From Friedmanniella luteola (lineage in GTDB: Bacteria > Actinomycetota > Actinomycetes > Propionibacteriales > Propionibacteriaceae): a stretch of DNA of 64,000 bases. Position 1 is the stretch's first letter, and every line of letters starts with the position of its first letter. The notes under the pieces were generated by a model. The model was not told where the DNA came from. It saw only the letters and a program-made list of their open reading frames with translations, and ran no database searches. Made by a program: the position numbers and the translations under genes. The stretch is from positions 3,162,001 to 3,226,000 of the forward strand of contig NZ_LT629749.1 in assembly GCF_900105065.1 (NCBI RefSeq), written 5' to 3'. Of the stretch, positions 4,886 through 38,469 are shown in pieces.

Positions 4886-6466
4886 TCAGAGGCGCCCGGT
4901 GCGGGCCGCGGCGACGACGGCGCGGGCGGCGTTGGCGCCGGGAGCGCCGTGCACACCCCCGCCGGGGTGCGCCGAGGCCGAGCCCAGGAACAGACCGCGG
5001 ACGGGGGTGTCCGCGCGGCCGAGACCGGCGATGGGCCGGAAGATCACCTGCTGGTGGAAGTTCGCCGTGCCGCCGCCGAGCGCGCCCTGGACCAGGTTCT
5101 CGTCCCGGGCCTGCATCTCGTGCGGTCCCATCACCCGGCGCGCGATGATCCGCGAGGCGAGGTCGGGCGCGTACTTCTCGAGCCGGGCCTGCATCCGGTC
5201 GGCCATCCGCTCGCACTCGTCGCGGTCCCAGCGGCCGGTGATGTCGTCGGGTCCGGCGTCGCGGTGGGTCACCTGCGGCACGTGCGTGTAGGCCCACAGC
5301 GCCTCGGTGCCGGCCGGGGACCGCGTCGGGTCCGAGGTCGTCATCTGCCCGACCAGCAGGAACGGGTCCGACGGCACGCTGTGGCTGGTGATCTGGGTCT
5401 GGGTGCGGCTCAGCTGGTCCATGGAGTCGATCACGTGCACGGTGCCGGGGGCGACGGGCGGCGGGTTCTCCCACGGCACGGTCGAGGAGAGCGCCCAGTC
5501 GACCTTGATCGTGCCCGGGTCGTGCTCGTAGCGCTCCATGCCGCGCCGCACCCGGGAGGGCAGCTCCGACCAGTCCACCAGCTCGCCGTAGAGCGCGGTG
5601 GCGGCCACGTCGGCGACCACGGCCCGCGCCTCGATCCGCTCGCCGTCGGCGGTGACCACCCCGTGGACCCGGCGGCGGTCCACCAGCACCCGGGCGACGC
5701 GGGTGCTGGTCCGGATCTGACCGCCCTTCGACCGGAGCCGGGCGGCCATCGCCTGGGTCAGCCGGCCGGACCCGCCCTCGGGCACCGGGAAGCCCACGGT
5801 CTGGCCGCTCATCGCCAGCAGCAGGCCCAGCAGGCCCGAGCCGGAGGCGTCCATCGGGATGTCGGCGTGCAGGGCGTTGCCGGCGATCAGCAGCTGGCCG
5901 GCCTCGGCGGCGAAGCGCTTGCCGCCCATCGTCGACGCGGGCTCCAGCAGCGTCCGGACGTAGTCCAGCCCGCCGACCCGGGGCAGCCGGGCCAGGGTCG
6001 CGAGCCCGCCCTTGACGGGCGGGAACGGGGTGAGCAGCGCCTGCACCAGCGACGGCCCGATGGTCACCCAGTCGTCGTAGAGCTGGCGCCAGGCGTCACC
6101 GTCCCCGGCGGCGTGGGCGTCCAGGCCGGCGACGGTGTCCTCGACGTCGCGGTGCAGCATCGCCCAGGAGCCGTCGGGCAGCGGGTTCCCCAGGATCGCC
6201 GGGGCGTGCGCCCACCGCAGCCCGTGCTCCTCCAGGTGCAGCGAGGGGATGACCGGCGACGCGGCCGAGAGCGGGTAGAAGGCGCTGAAGGCGTCGTGCA
6301 CGAAGCCCTCGGCCACGTCGGTGTCGGTGCGCACGGCGCCGCCCACCTCGGGCTGGGTCTCCAGCACCAGCACGTCCCAGCCGGCGTCCACCAGCAGGTT
6401 CGCCGCCACCAGGCCGTTGGGCCCCGCCCCGATCACGACGGCGTCCTTGCTCCCCGGTCCCGCCAC
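4886..6466 (-). CDS. NAD(P)/FAD-dependent oxidoreductase (phytoene desaturase/PYROXD2-like)
   Basis: About 526 residues with an N-terminal FAD dinucleotide-binding motif (VVIGAGPNGLVAANLLVDAG) followed by VLVLETQPEVGGAVRTD, as in phytoene-desaturase-type flavoproteins. The C-terminus has a second FAD-contact motif (VRGLFLGSASAHPGGGVHGAPGANAA). The overall pattern matches PYROXD2/CrtI-related oxidoreductases. No carotenoid synthesis genes are nearby, so the substrate is open. The reading frame extends up to a GTG at 6496, but the GTG at 6466 is preceded by a strong GGAGGAGG ribosome site and places the Rossmann motif near the N-terminus. It lies 16 bp downstream of the SDR gene, probably co-transcribed. 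Confidence 0.85.
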   Translation of the reverse strand: MAGPGSKDAVVIGAGPNGLVAANLLVDAGWDVLVLETQPEVGGAVRTDTDVAEGFVHDAFSAFYPLSAASPVIPSLHLEEHGLRWAHAPAILGNPLPDGSWAMLHRDVEDTVAGLDAHAAGDGDAWRQLYDDWVTIGPSLVQALLTPFPPVKGGLATLARLPRVGGLDYVRTLLEPASTMGGKRFAAEAGQLLIAGNALHADIPMDASGSGLLGLLLAMSGQTVGFPVPEGGSGRLTQAMAARLRSKGGQIRTSTRVARVLVDRRRVHGVVTADGERIEARAVVADVAATALYGELVDWSELPSRVRRGMERYEHDPGTIKVDWALSSTVPWENPPPVAPGTVHVIDSMDQLSRTQTQITSHSVPSDPFLLVGQMTTSDPTRSPAGTEALWAYTHVPQVTHRDAGPDDITGRWDRDECERMADRMQARLEKYAPDLASRIIARRVMGPHEMQARDENLVQGALGGGTANFHQQVIFRPIAGLGRADTPVRGLFLGSASAHPGGGVHGAPGANAARAVVAAARTGRL

Positions 6467-6482
6467 AGCCGTCCTCCTCCGC

Positions 6483-7433
6483 TCAGCGCCGCCCACGGCG
6501 GCCCAGCCGGGCTCGGAGCCCTGCCGCGATCGACGCTACGGGACTGCCCTGGCCGCCGCGCAGCCTGTTCCCCTCCGGCACGGGCGCGGGGACGTTGCCC
6601 GGCACGTCGACGGCCGCCTGCCGGACATCGGTCGCCGCCACCTCGAACAGCGGCGTGACGATCCGGTCGAAGACCGCGGGGAAGAGGTTGAACCCCCAGA
6701 TGGTCGGCCAGTTCACCGGCCCGACCTGGATCCGCGGCCGCGGGTGGTCGAGCAGCCGCAGTGCGGCGCGGGCCACCCGCTCGGGCTTGACGACGGGGGG
6801 CGGCGGCCGGCCGACCCAGCCCAGGTAGTTCGCCGCCTGCAGGTAGATCGGGGTGTCGATGCCGCCCGGGGCCAGGTGGCAGATGTGCACGCCGTCGCGG
6901 TCCACGTTCTCCACCTGCAGCAGCCGGGCCAGCCCGCGCACCCCCCACTTGCTCACCGCGTAGGCCGACATGTACGGCGGGGCGATGTAGCCGATCAGCG
7001 ACCCGATCAGGACCAGCGTGCCCGCGTTGGCCTCGCGCATCCCCGGCAGCACGGCCCGCGCGACGTTCACCGAGCCGAGCAGGTTCGTCTGCACGACGCG
7101 GTCGAAGATGGCGGCGGGCACGTCCTCCAGCCGGCCGTAGGCGACCAGCCCTGCGGAGTGCACGACGGCGTCGACGCGGCCGTACCGGCTGGTCACCGCC
7201 GCGAACGCCCGCTGCACCGCCGCGTCGTCGGCCACGTCGGTGGGCAGGTCCAGCGCGGACGCGGCCCCGGCCACCCGGCACTGCTCGGCGGCGTCGGCCA
7301 GCGCCGCGGGGCCGCGGGCGAGCAGGACGACGTGGTCCCCCCGCCCCGCCGCGTCCAGGGCCGTCGCCAGCCCGATCCCGCTCGAGGCGCCGGTCACCAC
7401 CACCACACGTGCTGCCTGCTCGTCCACGGGCAC
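6483..7433 (-). CDS. Short-chain dehydrogenase/reductase
   Basis: A 316-residue classical SDR. TGASSGIG near the N-terminus binds NAD(P), and the catalytic Ser (LIGSLIGYIA) and YAVSK Tyr/Lys pair are present. The C-terminus extends about 70 residues beyond the core with hydrophobic segments (GPVNWPTIWGFNLFPAVFDRIVTPLF) seen in membrane-associated SDRs of lipid metabolism. GTG start at 7433 follows GGAGGGA. It precedes the flavin oxidoreductase by 16 bp, so the two probably act on related hydrophobic substrates. Confidence 0.85.
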   Translation of the reverse strand: MPVDEQAARVVVVTGASSGIGLATALDAAGRGDHVVLLARGPAALADAAEQCRVAGAASALDLPTDVADDAAVQRAFAAVTSRYGRVDAVVHSAGLVAYGRLEDVPAAIFDRVVQTNLLGSVNVARAVLPGMREANAGTLVLIGSLIGYIAPPYMSAYAVSKWGVRGLARLLQVENVDRDGVHICHLAPGGIDTPIYLQAANYLGWVGRPPPPVVKPERVARAALRLLDHPRPRIQVGPVNWPTIWGFNLFPAVFDRIVTPLFEVAATDVRQAAVDVPGNVPAPVPEGNRLRGGQGSPVASIAAGLRARLGRRGRR

Positions 7434-7514
7434 TCCCTCCGTCGGCCGCGGTGCCTCCGCCGCCGTGTCGTCCCCCGCACTTCGTCGCTGCGGAGCCCGC
7501 AGATGCGGAACGGC

Positions 7515-32292: not shown

Positions 32293-33864
32293 TCAGCCCG
32301 GGACGGCCAGCTCCTCCCGGGCGGCCGCCGCCTCGCGCAGCAGCACCGCGCTCGCCTGCTGGTAGAGGGCCATCGCCTCCTCCGCGCTGTCGGCCACGGC
32401 CGTCATCCCCAGCCGGCCGTGCTCGGTCAGCGCGCTGATCATGTGGAAGACGATCCCGGTCTGCCGGCCCAGGTCGAAGTGCAGGTGGTGCCGGGCGACG
32501 ACGTCGAAGAGGTCCCGCACCGCGAGGGCGCGCAGGTCGTCGCCCTCCAGGTGGTCGGTGGCCACCAGGTGCTTGGGGACGCCCGTCTCGGACAGGAAGC
32601 GTCCGGAGGCGGCGTCGTAGCTCCCGCCGGTGAGGTACTGCAGGGTGAGGAACGGGTGCGTCGTGCCGCCCTTGCGCAGGTTCAGCTCGATGGCGTAGCT
32701 GTGCCAGGCCCCGTCCGCGTCCTGGGTGACCACGAAGTCCACGGCGAACCGGCCCAGCACGCCCTCGCGGGCCAGCCGCTCGGCCAGCACGGTGGCGGGG
32801 CCGCTGATCAGGGCGGCGTAGGCCGGGTCGGCCGGGAAGACGCACCCCAGGTAGCTCTGCCCGCTCGGCCCGCCGAGCAGCTGGTCGTGGGTGGACAGCA
32901 GCTCGACGGAGCCGTCGGGCATGACCCGCAGCTGCACGCTCGGGCTCTCCAGCCGCTCGCCGACGATGCGCTCCTCGACGATGCCCCCGCCGGCCGCGAA
33001 CGCGTCCAGGTAGGTCCGGGCCGCGAGCCCGGCCTCCGGGCACAAGCCCTCGACCCGCCGACGGACCTCCCGACGGCGGGCCTCCGCCGGCAGCGTGCCG
33101 ACCCCCCGGAGGTCGATCAGCGCGTTGCCGATGCCGGACACGCCCTCGTCGGTCTTGATCACGGCCTCCTCGAAGCCCCGCTGGTCCAGCAGCTCCAGCA
33201 GTGCCTCGACCACCTCGTCGACCGTGTGCAGGCCCTCCCGCCCGAGCGGGTGCACGATGCCCTCCTCGCCGAACAGCCGGCGGCAGCCCGACTTGGTGCC
33301 GAGCGGGGCGAAACCCGGGTCGGCTCCGTAGACGGGAATGTCGAGGAGGAGGGCGACGTCGCGCTCCAGGGCCGAGGTGTTGTAGGGGATGAGGTGGCAC
33401 CGCTCCCGGTTCGGGATGGCGGCCCGGACCCGCTCCAGCAGCCGCGGCCGGTCCAGCAGCTTCGCGCTCAGCGGCCGGGCCGACCCGTCGTCCGCCGAGA
33501 TCTGGGTGAGCCGGGCCAGCGCGTGGCTGGGGATCACCCCCGGCAGCAGGGCCAGGTAGTACTCGATCACGGCGGGCGCGATCGGCAGCGAGCTGATGTA
33601 GACCATCCGCAGGTCGGGCTGGCGCAGGAGCAGCAGCAGGAACAGCAGCCGCTCCTCGAACGCCTGGGCGAGGCTGCCGCTCCGCCCGCTCGCCTGGTCG
33701 GTCGAGGTCGACGGCAGCACGACGACCGACTCGTCGCGGTGGCCCTGCCGCACGGAGCTCCAGACGGTCGGCATGCGTTCCTGCAGCACCCGGAAGCGCC
33801 GCTCCCGCTCGGCCTCGTCCAGCATCGACAGCCGCACCACGTCGGCCCCTGGTCCCGTCAGCAT
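32293..33864 (-). CDS. PGM1-related ATP-grasp peptide ligase-like protein
   Basis: A 523-residue protein resembling the pheganomycin peptide ligase PGM1 family: an N-terminal domain of about 170 residues (VYISSLPIAPAVIEYYLALLPGVIPSHALARL), an ATP-grasp domain (GTKSGCRRLFGEEGIVHPLG, EEAVIKTDEGVSGIGNALIDL, RFAVDFVV...AIELNLRKGGTTHPFL) and a C-terminal PGM1-type tail (LVATDHLEGDDLRALAVRDLFD). ATP-grasp ligases join a carboxylate to an amine with ATP. No ribosomal precursor peptide or biosynthetic cluster is adjacent. Instead it is the last gene of a signalling operon, 13 bp after the cyclase gene. Start ATG follows GAGGAGG. The substrate is unknown. Confidence 0.8.
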   Translation of the reverse strand: MLTGPGADVVRLSMLDEAERERRFRVLQERMPTVWSSVRQGHRDESVVVLPSTSTDQASGRSGSLAQAFEERLLFLLLLLRQPDLRMVYISSLPIAPAVIEYYLALLPGVIPSHALARLTQISADDGSARPLSAKLLDRPRLLERVRAAIPNRERCHLIPYNTSALERDVALLLDIPVYGADPGFAPLGTKSGCRRLFGEEGIVHPLGREGLHTVDEVVEALLELLDQRGFEEAVIKTDEGVSGIGNALIDLRGVGTLPAEARRREVRRRVEGLCPEAGLAARTYLDAFAAGGGIVEERIVGERLESPSVQLRVMPDGSVELLSTHDQLLGGPSGQSYLGCVFPADPAYAALISGPATVLAERLAREGVLGRFAVDFVVTQDADGAWHSYAIELNLRKGGTTHPFLTLQYLTGGSYDAASGRFLSETGVPKHLVATDHLEGDDLRALAVRDLFDVVARHHLHFDLGRQTGIVFHMISALTEHGRLGMTAVADSAEEAMALYQQASAVLLREAAAAREELAVPG

Positions 33865-33876
33865 CTGCCAGCCTCC

Positions 33877-35019
33877 TCAGGTCTGCGCGTCCCGCAGCTC
33901 GGCTCCCCGGCCGTCCTCCAGGTCCTCGACCGCGGTCGCCGCCACCGGCCGGCTGAACCCGCGCAGCGTCAGCGGCCCCACCGGCTCGCCGACGACGTCG
34001 TACCCGAGGTCGGCGAGCACGCGGGGGGCCACCAGCACCTGCCACGGTCCGGCCACCGAGCACAGCCGGGCGGACAGGTTCGTGACGCTGCCGATCGCGG
34101 CGTAGTCGGAGCGACCCTCGAACCCGATCCGCCCGAGGGTGGCGTAGCCCGACGCGACCCCGATGCCCAGCGCCAGGTCGTGGCCCCGGCGGCTCCACCG
34201 CTCCGACAGCGCCCGGACCCGGGCGCGGATCTCCAGCGCCATCCGCAGGGCCCGGCCGCCCGGGTCCTCGCACGGCACCGGGTCGTTGAAGAAGATCATC
34301 ACCCCGTCGCCGGTGAAGCGCTCGAGCGTGCCCTCGAAGGCGAAGACCAGCTCGCCGAGGACGGCGTGGTAGCTCGCGAGGACCTCCATCACCTCCTCCG
34401 GCTCGGTCGCCTCGGCGAAGCTGGTGAAGCCGCGGAGGTCGCAGAACACGACGACGACGTCACGGCGGTGGCTGTCCAGGACGGCGCCGCCGGAGTCGAC
34501 GACGAGGTCGGCGACCTGCGGCGCGAGGAACCTCCGGAGCCGGCTGATCCGCTCCAGCTCGTCGACCTGGGCCTGCACCCGCTGCTCGAGCTCCGCGTTC
34601 CACGCCGCCAGCTCGGCCGCCTGCCGGGCGATGGTGTCGTGGTACCGCTTCACCCGGGCGAGCGAGCGCACCCGGGTGATCAGCTCGGTCTGGTTGAAGG
34701 GCTTGGTCACGAAGTCGTCGGCGCCCGCCTGCAGCGCGGGGAGCTTCTGCTGCTGCCCGCTGGCGGTGATCATCACCACCGGCAGGAAGGCGGTGGCGGG
34801 GTCGGAGCGGATCCGGCGGCAGACCTCGTAGCCGTCGAGCCCCGGCAGCACCAGGTCGAGCAGCACCAGGTCGACGTCCGCGGTGCGCAGCAGCTCCAGC
34901 GCCTCCTCACCGCTCCGCGCCGTCAGGACCCGCTCGCCCTGCGGGCTGAGGACGGCGTCGATCAGCCGGAGGTTCACCGGCTCGTCGTCCACGGCCAGCA
35001 CCGTCACCGGCTCAGCCAC
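33877..35019 (-). CDS. Response regulator with class III adenylate/guanylate cyclase output
   Basis: A 380-residue protein. An N-terminal receiver (residues 1-125, Asp55 in LVLLDLVLPGLDG, Lys in FVTKPFNQTEL) is joined by a coiled coil (AAELAAWNAELEQRVQAQVDELERI) to a class III cyclase domain (~185-360). Metal-binding Asp residues are present (VVVFCDLRGFTSF, RFTGDGVMIFF), as are the transition-state Asn and Arg (VTNLSARL). At the two base-recognition positions, however, Arg replaces Lys (LERFTGDG) and Ser replaces Asp (IGSVTN), so nucleotide specificity is unclear. GTG start overlaps the preceding receiver gene by 8 bp. Confidence 0.88.
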   Translation of the reverse strand: MAEPVTVLAVDDEPVNLRLIDAVLSPQGERVLTARSGEEALELLRTADVDLVLLDLVLPGLDGYEVCRRIRSDPATAFLPVVMITASGQQQKLPALQAGADDFVTKPFNQTELITRVRSLARVKRYHDTIARQAAELAAWNAELEQRVQAQVDELERISRLRRFLAPQVADLVVDSGGAVLDSHRRDVVVVFCDLRGFTSFAEATEPEEVMEVLASYHAVLGELVFAFEGTLERFTGDGVMIFFNDPVPCEDPGGRALRMALEIRARVRALSERWSRRGHDLALGIGVASGYATLGRIGFEGRSDYAAIGSVTNLSARLCSVAGPWQVLVAPRVLADLGYDVVGEPVGPLTLRGFSRPVAATAVEDLEDGRGAELRDAQT

Positions 35020-35398
35020 CGGACGCCCGCCCGCCGAGGAAGCCCGCCAGCTGCCCGGGGAGGGCGCGGATGCTCAGCGGCTTGCCGATGAACCCGTCGA
35101 AACCGGCCTCCTGCACCCGGCTGCGGTCACCCTGCATCGCCGACGCGGAGACCGCGACCACCGGCACCGCGCCGAGCCCGCCCGCCGCCCGCAGCCGCCG
35201 CAGCGTCTCGGTCCCGTCGATGCCCGGCAGCTGGAGATCCATCAGGACCAGGTCCGGCGGCTGCCGGCGGGCCGCCACCAGCGCCTCCTCCCCCGTCCGC
35301 GCCTCGACGACCTCGTAGCCGGCGACCGCCAGCACGTCCCGCACCAGCTTCATGTTGAGCGGGTGGTCCTCCACCACCAGGATCCGGGCGCCGCTCAT
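35012..35398 (-). CDS. Stand-alone receiver (CheY-like response regulator)
   Basis: A 128-residue single receiver domain: acidic pocket ILVVEDHPLN, phosphoacceptor Asp54 in LVLMDLQLPGIDG, Thr/Ser position VAVSASAM and Lys in GFIGKPLSIRAL. There is no output domain, so it likely shuttles phosphate or acts by protein binding. The ATG overlaps the stop of the hybrid kinase gene (ATGA), and its own 3' end overlaps the cyclase gene by 8 bp. The order kinase-receiver-receiver/cyclase suggests a multistep phosphorelay. Confidence 0.92.
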   Translation of the reverse strand: MSGARILVVEDHPLNMKLVRDVLAVAGYEVVEARTGEEALVAARRQPPDLVLMDLQLPGIDGTETLRRLRAAGGLGAVPVVAVSASAMQGDRSRVQEAGFDGFIGKPLSIRALPGQLAGFLGGRASGG

Positions 35399-37656
35399 CC
35401 CGCTGCCCCTGCCCGCAGCCGGGCCGCCGGGCGCGGCACGTCAGCCGCGCTCCGCGGCAGGGCCCCGATCCGGACGAGCGTCCCGACCAGCTCGTCCCGG
35501 CGCACCGGTTTCACCAGGTAGTCCGCGGCGCCCAGCGCCAGCCCCCGGGCCCGCTCGTCCAGGATGGACACCACGACCACGGGCACCCCGGCCGTCGCCG
35601 GGTCGGACCGGAGCTGCTCCAGGACCTCCCAGCCGTCCACCCCCGGCAGCTGGATGTCCAGGACGACGGCGCTGGGGACGAGCCGGCGGACCAGGTCGAG
35701 CGCCTCGCGGCCGTCGCGGGCCCGGACCAGCCGCACGCCTGGCCGGTCGAGGTAGACGGCCAGCAGGTCGAGCGAGGCCCGGTCGTCCTCGACCAGCAGC
35801 AGGGCCGACTCGCCGTCGCCGGCCGCCCCCGGAGCCGGGTCGCCCCCCACCGGGAGCGTGAAGCCGAAGATGCTGCCGACGCCGAGCTCGGAGTCCAGCC
35901 ACATCCGGCCGCCGAGCAGGGCGACGATGCGCCGGCAGAGCGTGAGCCCCAGACCGGTGCCCTCCTCGCGGACGCCGCGGTGGCCCTGCTGGAACGACTC
36001 GAAGATCCGCTCCCGGTCCTCGGCGCGGATGCCGGGACCGCTGTCGGTGACCCGCACCTCGAGGTCGTCGCCGACGTGCTCCACGTCCACCCGGACCCGC
36101 CCGCCGTCGCCGGTGAACTTCACCGCGTTGCTGAGCAGGTTCAGCAGGACCTGCTTGAACCGCAGCACGTCGGCCACCACCAGGTCGACGTCGTCGCCGA
36201 CGACCAGCTCCAGGGTGATGCCGTGCTGCCCGGCGCGCTCACGGACCATCGACAGCCCGTCCTCCAGCACGGTCCGGACGGCGAACGTCGACGGCTCCAG
36301 CTCCATCCGGCCGGCCTCGACCTTGGACAGGTCGAGGATCTCGTTGAGCAGCTCGAGCAGGTGCCGCCCCGAGGAGAGGATGTCGCGCAGGTACTCGTCC
36401 TGCCGCTCGTTCAGCTCCCCGAACAGCCGGTCCAGCAGGACCTCGGAGAAGCCGATCACCGCGTTCAGCGGGGTCCGCAGCTCGTGGGACATGCTGGCCA
36501 GGAAGTCCGACTTGTGCTGGCTGGCGACCTGCAGCTCGGCGGTCCGGCGCTCCAGCTCCCGGAACAGCTTCGCGTTGTAGACGGCGAGCGCCGACTGGCC
36601 CGCGAAGGTCTCGACGAACTCCAGCATCTCGGGGGTGAAGTCGCCGGGGATCCGGCGGCGCACCACCAGGGCGCCGAGGATCGCCCCGCCCCGCAGCATG
36701 GGCACGGCCACCATCGAGCGCCAGCCACCGTCGCGCAGCACCTCCAGGTGGGGGTCGGCCTCGACCGCCGCGAGGTCGGGGACCGCGATCGGCCGGCCCT
36801 CCCGGGCGGCGCGCCCGACGAGGGTGGAGTGCAGGCCGATGGAGGCCGAGCGCAGCCGTTCGAGCAGGGCGGGGTCGGTCGCGTGCGCGGCCCGGACGAC
36901 GAACTTCCCCTCCTCCTCGAGGTACTCCATGATCGAGCCGCCGTCGCAGCCCGAGAGCCGGACGGCGTTCGCGATCACCGTCGCCAGCACCTCGTCCAGG
37001 ACCAGGCTGGAGCTGACGGTCTGGCTCACCTCGCTGAGCGACTCCAGCTGCTGCACCCGCCGGCTCAGCTCGGCCTGTCGGCCCTCCAGGGCGCGCACGA
37101 GGTCGACGGTGCGCACCACCACGGCGGCCTGGGCGGCGAGCGCCTCCAGCAGCGCGATGGCCCGCTCGTCGAACGGGTCCACCTGGGTGCGGAAGAGGGA
37201 CAGGGTCCCCACCACCACGCCCTCCACCAGCATGGGTGCCGAGATGGAGGTCCGCAGCCCGCTGAGCTGCTGGACGTCGGGCCGGCCGTACTTCGGGTCG
37301 GACAGCACGTCGGGCACCTGCACGACCGTCCGGTCGAGCGTGGCCCGGCCCACCAGGTTGGCCCGGTCCCGGCGCAGCGGGTGCCGGGTGAGGTGCTCGA
37401 TGAACTCCGGTGTCAGCCCGACGGAGGCGGCCAGCACGAAGTGGTCGCCGTCGGCGAGGTAGACCTGGGCCGCGTCGGCCCGGCACAGCCGGCGGCCGCT
37501 GCTGACGATGGTGTCCAGGACGGCGTCGGGGTCGGCGGAGCGGCCCAGCGCGGTGAGGATCTCGTTGGTGGCGGTCAGCTGCTCGGCGGCGTCGGCGCGC
37601 TCGCGCAGCAGACGTCGAAGATCGTCGACGCCCGCGCCCGCGTCCGGGTCGGCCAT
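35395..37656 (-). CDS. Hybrid histidine kinase with two GAF domains and a C-terminal receiver
   Basis: A 753-residue cytoplasmic hybrid kinase. A short coiled coil leads into GAF1 (~40-190) and GAF2 (~215-365). HisKA follows with His391 (SDFLASMSHELRTPLNAVIGFSEVLL), then HATPase (NLLSNAVKFTGDGG, DSGPGI, GTGLGLTLCRRIVALLGG) and a receiver (~632-748) with Asp667 (AVVLDIQLPGVDG) and YLVKPVRRDEL. No membrane helix or signal peptide is present, so it senses cytoplasmic ligands, light or redox via GAF. No chromophore Cys is obvious. It is the first gene of a four-gene overlapping operon. ATG at 37656 follows GGGGGG. Confidence 0.93.
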   Translation of the reverse strand: MADPDAGAGVDDLRRLLRERADAAEQLTATNEILTALGRSADPDAVLDTIVSSGRRLCRADAAQVYLADGDHFVLAASVGLTPEFIEHLTRHPLRRDRANLVGRATLDRTVVQVPDVLSDPKYGRPDVQQLSGLRTSISAPMLVEGVVVGTLSLFRTQVDPFDERAIALLEALAAQAAVVVRTVDLVRALEGRQAELSRRVQQLESLSEVSQTVSSSLVLDEVLATVIANAVRLSGCDGGSIMEYLEEEGKFVVRAAHATDPALLERLRSASIGLHSTLVGRAAREGRPIAVPDLAAVEADPHLEVLRDGGWRSMVAVPMLRGGAILGALVVRRRIPGDFTPEMLEFVETFAGQSALAVYNAKLFRELERRTAELQVASQHKSDFLASMSHELRTPLNAVIGFSEVLLDRLFGELNERQDEYLRDILSSGRHLLELLNEILDLSKVEAGRMELEPSTFAVRTVLEDGLSMVRERAGQHGITLELVVGDDVDLVVADVLRFKQVLLNLLSNAVKFTGDGGRVRVDVEHVGDDLEVRVTDSGPGIRAEDRERIFESFQQGHRGVREEGTGLGLTLCRRIVALLGGRMWLDSELGVGSIFGFTLPVGGDPAPGAAGDGESALLLVEDDRASLDLLAVYLDRPGVRLVRARDGREALDLVRRLVPSAVVLDIQLPGVDGWEVLEQLRSDPATAGVPVVVVSILDERARGLALGAADYLVKPVRRDELVGTLVRIGALPRSAADVPRPAARLRAGAAG

Positions 37657-37848: not shown

Positions 37849-38469
37849 TCAGCTGTTCTGGGCCTCCCAGGTGAGTCCGGCGGCGGCGGTGCCGCCCTGC
37901 GTGGTGTCCGGCGCACCAGCCTTGACCGTGTAGGTGATCTGGTAGGTGCGGGACTCCTCGGCCTTGCCGCCGGCCGTCGCCCACTCGCCGACCCCGGTGG
38001 CGTAGCCCGTCGCGGTCCGCCCGAAGGTGTCGAGCGTGCCGGTGTAGACGTCGGCGCCGGAGGCGAGCGGGGTGTAGCCGGTGCAGGAGCCGAAGCTGCC
38101 GCCGGTGCCCTGGCTGACCTTCAGGTCGATGTTCGCGGCCAGGTCCTTGGTCGTGGTGGCGTTCGTGGCGTACAGCCTCACCTTCGAGGCCAGGCTGCCC
38201 TTCGAGGTGACGACGACGCACTGGGTGCCGGTCGACCCGGGCTTGAGGTTGGTGGCGGTGAAGGCGGCGGTGTTGTTGTCGTCGTCAGCGAGGACGACGG
38301 TGCCGGTGGCCCAGTTGCTGGTCGGGTTCACCGTGGTGGCGGAGTAGGCGGAGTAGGAGGCCTGCGAGACGACCAGGCCCGAGACCGCGATCGCGGCGGG
38401 CACGGCCAGCAGGGTGGCGATCCTGGCGGCCCGGTGCGACGGGCGGGCGGTCTTGGCGGTGGCGGTCAT
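37849..38469 (-). CDS. Secreted TasA/SipW-type signal peptide protein
   Basis: A 206-residue exported protein. The N-terminus (RIATLLAVPAAIAVSGLVVSQASYSAYSATTVNPTSNWATGTV) has the SipW-dependent style of TasA/CalY proteins, in which the mature chain begins with a Ser/Ala-rich strand followed by a GTV...L pattern. The rest is a predicted beta-sandwich rich in Thr, Gly and Asn (NLKPGSTGTQCVVVTSKGSLASKVRLYA). It has two widely spaced cysteines (CVVV, GSCTGY) that could form a disulfide. No SipW signal peptidase is adjacent. A surface-fibre or matrix role is inferred. ATG follows GAGGAGC. Confidence 0.75.
   Translation of the reverse strand: MTATAKTARPSHRAARIATLLAVPAAIAVSGLVVSQASYSAYSATTVNPTSNWATGTVVLADDDNNTAAFTATNLKPGSTGTQCVVVTSKGSLASKVRLYATNATTTKDLAANIDLKVSQGTGGSFGSCTGYTPLASGADVYTGTLDTFGRTATGYATGVGEWATAGGKAEESRTYQITYTVKAGAPDTTQGGTAAAGLTWEAQNS

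Follow-up and report, generated by a model that had tools for sequence, protein, structure and literature searches.

A stretch of 64,000 nucleotides from Friedmanniella luteola (contig NZ_LT629749.1, positions 3,162,001 to 3,226,000), here called the window, contains four genes on the minus strand that encode a hybrid histidine kinase, a stand-alone receiver, a receiver-class III nucleotide cyclase (receiver-cyclase) and an ATP-grasp amide ligase. The four genes are one tightly packed unit, which is conserved across several actinobacterial families with its catalytic-type residues kept, and since the arrangement recurs in many other genomes, it exceeds chance. The link between the signalling genes and the ligase is well supported. 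The best explanation, to which we give slightly less than even confidence, is that the unit is a co-inherited cassette for signalling and synthesis. Its features are listed below; the genes were identified from open reading frame calls and Pfam.

35395..37656, minus strand: GAF-GAF-HisKA-HATPase_c-REC hybrid histidine kinase, 753 amino acids
35012..35398, minus strand: stand-alone receiver (REC), 128 amino acids
33877..35019, minus strand: receiver-cyclase (REC and Guanylate_cyc), 380 amino acids
32293..33864, minus strand: BesA-type ATP-grasp amide ligase (ATP-grasp_IQCH and PGM1_C), 523 amino acids
37657..37848, minus strand: candidate operon promoter stretch, intergenic, placed by position without a promoter scan

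The original prediction, made from the DNA letters alone, described a closely packed four-gene operon; the gene calls and domain matches bear this out and place the operon on the minus strand. The kinase and lone receiver genes overlap by 4 nt (ATGA) and the lone receiver and receiver-cyclase genes by 8 nt, both as claimed, while the spacing between the receiver-cyclase and the ligase is 12 nt (33865-33876) and not 13. The nearest called minus-strand gene upstream of the kinase ends at 37849, 192 nt away, and the gene past the ligase has the opposite orientation, which is why we delimit the unit to four genes. The genome consists of one contig of 4.7 Mb. The GC fraction is 0.739 in the operon and 0.749 in the window, and the composition therefore gives no visible sign of arrival.

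In a phylogeny of 34 ligases, the 18 nearest, including that of the window, form a clade with a support of 100/99, and the cyclase is located directly upstream of the ligase in 17 of the 18. The genome of the 18th keeps the relay elsewhere, and the proposed link between the ligase and the relay thus survived the comparison with other genomes. The whole order of kinase, receiver, cyclase and ligase is present in L034, L035, L037, L038, L040, L041, L045, L049, L050, L051 and L054, and in G707 (L128), where the cyclase and the ligase are 5 nt apart. The loci L036, L052 and L053 are truncated by contig ends, yet retain the cyclase directly before the ligase. These two genes overlap by exactly 4 nt in 14 of the 16 relatives and by 1 nt in L050, and 4 nt separate them in L051, with start codons chosen by script. 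The genes in the fetched loci were called by our own script, which failed to recognise the ligase of L044 and, at the cyclase matches of L083 and L084, called genes on the wrong strand. The tree and the alignments do not include L044, and the ligase tree also omits L128 and L066, in the latter of which a distant ligase copy was called as two pieces. On the short contigs L036, L043, L052, L053, L056 and L059, neighbours may be cut off.

The exception among the 18 is Nocardioides astragali (L046), where the ligase and a fifth gene are present, with no relay at that site. Another contig of this genome contains a kinase-receiver-cyclase trio, in which the kinase is 57% and the cyclase 63% identical to those of the window. 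The trio groups with the ligase-linked L039, L050 and L051 in the phylogenies of the kinase (99/98) and of the cyclase (95/89, L048 included), and the ligase of N. astragali adjoins L051 in its own tree (90/80). Outside the clade, 14 distant ligase copies (loci L055-L067) have no adjoining relay gene; of the 21 distant copies, those of G517, G327, G251, G501, G454, G563 and G533 fall outside this count. Second, distant copies without a relay also occur in genomes that hold a linked ligase, namely G332 (L065 7412-8638), G204 (L066 6869-8301) and G315 (L055 8678-10150).

The class-wide scans, in which the top few candidates per genome were scored, identified a ligase relative at E-values up to 1e-40 in 24 of 394 class genomes (28 matches). 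Ligases with at least 57% identity were present in seven of the 394 (G000 included), and the same seven hold a receiver-cyclase match better than 1e-130. Ligases of the close type were found at full length in four of the 20 own-genus genomes, in 4 of 197 sampled genomes of the family, where a fifth match is a weak fragment, and in 3 of 119 genomes of Microbacterium, the genus of L035. The ligase tree mixes genera, so that the Microbacterium proteins group with the window and Friedmanniella types (100/99) and the ligase of the own-genus genome G012 with those of Mycobacterium manitobense and Nocardioides (100/100). Across 13 operons, the pairwise distances correlate between cyclase and ligase (r 0.938) and between kinase and ligase (r 0.871), and none of 2000 permutations gave values as high. 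The genes are distributed patchily and seem to travel together; repeated joint transfer of the block is the simplest reading, from trees compared without a species tree. Spread by plasmids was considered and set aside; the two plasmid matches, with 44.6% and 37.7% identity, are both from outside the close clade.

The kinase contains two GAF stretches followed by HisKA, HATPase_c and REC domains. Pfam identified no HAMP or membrane sensor domain, which, as a result from domain matches without a transmembrane-helix prediction, is consistent with the cytoplasmic location predicted for it. The phospho-acceptor His391 and the receiver Asp667 of the kinase are conserved in 13 of 13 aligned rows, as are Asp54 and Lys106 of the lone receiver, and the phospho-acceptor residue is intact in all 15 aligned receiver-cyclases. 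A search against solved structures for the cue of the GAF pair gave six weak matches, the best with an E-value of 4.6e-6, and no clear cue. No Hpt component was identified by Pfam among the operon proteins; the genome has two Hpt matches at other sites, which could serve. Because the operon contains three receivers and no Hpt component, a relay is no more likely than branching or a phosphate sink, and the label of phosphorelay is unproven. In Mycobacterium manitobense (L039), the lone receiver is absent from the operon, and an FHA-domain gene (2072-2488) overlaps the kinase start. In L048 (G012), the kinase gene at 5191-7456 extends across three reading frames in an otherwise intact operon, by decay or sequencing error.

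The receiver-cyclase has the residues of a class III cyclase: the metal-binding Asp194 and Asp238 and the transition-state residues Asn314 and Arg318 are conserved in 15 of 15 aligned rows. The base-selecting residues differ from those of CyaB; the first site is Arg in 12, His in two and Gln in one of the 15 rows, where CyaB has Lys, and the second is Ala in all 15, where CyaB has Thr. The canonical pair of adenylate cyclases (Lys and Asp/Thr) is thus missing from all 15 rows, for which reason cyclic AMP (cAMP) cannot be assumed as the product, which may be another nucleotide. The cyclase belongs to a family in which the base choice is not readable from the usual residues. Possible receivers of the cyclic nucleotide are seven cNMP-binding matches in the same genome, all of them outside the window. 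A small cNMP-binding-domain protein is encoded directly before the unlinked trio of N. astragali (L126 5155-5580), another adjoins trio-like genes in L083, and Crp-type genes lie past the ligase in L054 and L043. A profile built from these four proteins gave no further matches among the called genes of the loci. At a contig end in L084 (G315:C284, 2-967) there is a second receiver-cyclase piece, which is a better match than the one that adjoins the ligase.

The ligase matches PGM1_C with 38.8 bits (cut-off 22.5) and ATP-grasp_IQCH with 65.6 bits (cut-off 27), and there is also a match of the fold. Its catalytic-type residues Lys237, Glu297, Glu298, Asp327, Glu393, Asn395 and Arg397 are conserved in 15 of 15 aligned rows. 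The description of the ligase as PGM1-like holds for the PGM1_C domain, but the nearest solved relative is BesA, an L-propargylglycine--L-glutamate ligase (PDB 8yi6), well ahead of PGM1. The score against the BesA equivalog NF042917 is 110.3 bits, where the curated cut-off is 750, and by sequence the protein is a relative of BesA and not BesA itself. Its probable reaction is the coupling of glutamate to a second small molecule. The ligase superfamily extends to the cyanobacteria, as the control genome of Synechococcus elongatus has a PGM1_C match above the cut-off.

In five of the 18 clade loci, from two lineages, the ligase is followed by a fifth gene, the product of which is predicted to have the fold of a gamma-glutamyl cyclotransferase (GGCT). 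The fold was taken from the predicted structure because there was no Pfam match for the three proteins scanned and no significant match to the PDB by sequence. This gene hints at a gamma-glutamyl small molecule as the ligase product, and the evidence from it is its adjacency to the ligase in two lineages only. Our script recognised such a gene in 28 of 32 loci examined, and a ligase piece adjoins it in three of them (L085-L087); the most widespread other neighbour is an unidentified gene of about 133 amino acids, in six loci. As a marker for the presence of the ligase, the family was rejected, since 58 of the 394 class genomes match it (E-values up to 1e-20) and 55 of the 58 are without a close ligase. 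In the window, the neighbour upstream of the operon (37849-38469, minus strand) encodes a secreted-type protein with a signal-like N-terminus and no Pfam match; we presume a resemblance to TasA/camelysin-type proteins.

In a cassette of this kind, the two GAF domains would read a cytosolic cue and set the autophosphorylation of the kinase, and the phosphate would pass to the receiver of the kinase itself, to the lone receiver as a sink or adaptor, and to the receiver-cyclase. The latter would then make a cyclic nucleotide that acts on cNMP-binding proteins encoded elsewhere. The ligase, translated from the same transcript, would couple an amino acid or amine to glutamate, probably at the gamma-carboxyl as in BesA. 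The answer to the cue would thus include a second messenger as well as a small gamma-glutamyl compound, and in some lineages the neighbouring cyclotransferase-fold enzyme would degrade the ligase product. The unit would pass between genomes as a block.

Several observations weigh against this explanation. The sister-clade ligases L042, L043 and L047 have no relay genes beside them (L043 starts at a contig end), and their genomes contain no receiver-cyclase at 1e-60. Conversely, three further class genomes, G249, G250 and G209, have cyclases that are 56, 54 and 53% identical to that of the window and no close ligase. G249 and G250 share the gene order of kinase, receiver and cyclase, with no ligase beside the trios, and G209 has similar genes. 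Their kinases differ from that of the window in that HAMP replaces the GAF pair in G249 and G250, a four-helix-bundle type N-terminus is above the cut-off in G249 only, and the kinase of G250 lacks a receiver domain. Neither part of the unit strictly requires the other. The trio of N. astragali is on a long branch although its ligase is close to L051, and the two may have arrived separately, with no shared recent history needed. The contig of the G315 ligase ends within the adjoining cyclase, and this cyclase piece matches at 7.7e-80 only; G315 has a better match on another contig. Correlated distances are also expected from joint inheritance without functional contact, the identity to BesA is only 27-29%, neither of the canonical base-selecting residues is present in the cyclase, and cNMP-binding neighbours were found in just four of the loci searched. 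Finally, the cyclotransferase-fold family, which is common without a close ligase and is linked to one in two lineages, has no match in the genome of the window.

The foremost alternative, which we regard as doubtful, is that the relay and the ligase are only co-expressed from a promoter controlled by something else, and that the relay has no effect on the ligase or on what it makes. The gene overlaps are enough for co-expression, and the sister-clade ligases and the trios without a ligase agree with it, but the pairing persists across families, and in N. astragali even when unlinked, for which shared transcription alone is insufficient. It is unlikely that the ligase modifies a peptide, a protein or a piece of the cell wall, along the lines of the original prediction and of PGM1, which acts with a peptide in the synthesis of pheganomycin. 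No precursor peptide or pheganomycin-type gene was found among the four genes and the flanking FGGY kinase and secreted-type genes, the rest of the window being unannotated and peptides shorter than 60 amino acids not searched. A closed loop in which the ligase makes the molecule sensed by the GAF domains, with the cassette as signal maker, receiver and amplifier and the cyclotransferase as destroyer, would have all its parts within one unit, GAF domains do bind small molecules, and the removal step would fall to the cyclotransferase-fold gene next to the ligase, but it is improbable, as there is no exporter gene in the unit and no cyclotransferase-fold match in the genome of the window. Equally improbable is its fullest form, in which a transferable cassette would produce and perceive its own gamma-glutamyl signal, remove it in some lineages, and amplify it into a cyclic nucleotide with an unusual choice of base.

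Returning to the co-inherited cassette, the interpretation originally given is partly supported, and we found no description of a kinase-receiver-cyclase trio with an amide ligase in the literature searched. The cassette offers a concrete route to a metabolite of the gamma-glutamyl or a similar type, and to its cue. Compared with known systems, the ligase is closest to BesA, which uses the gamma-carboxyl of glutamate. The two differ in that BesA, at 27-29% identity, has different residues where the window ligase has a GGTTHP stretch, and the operon holds no other biosynthetic gene. PGM1, which we take to be the "ATP grasp protein" of PDB 3wvq/3wvr, is more distant than BesA, and its pheganomycin-type partners are missing from the operon. 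The fifth-gene protein is 15% identical to GGCT (2rbh, 3cry and 2i5t, the first presumably the human enzyme), which has a catalytic Glu. Each part of the cassette is of a known type, and their combination is real and co-inherited.
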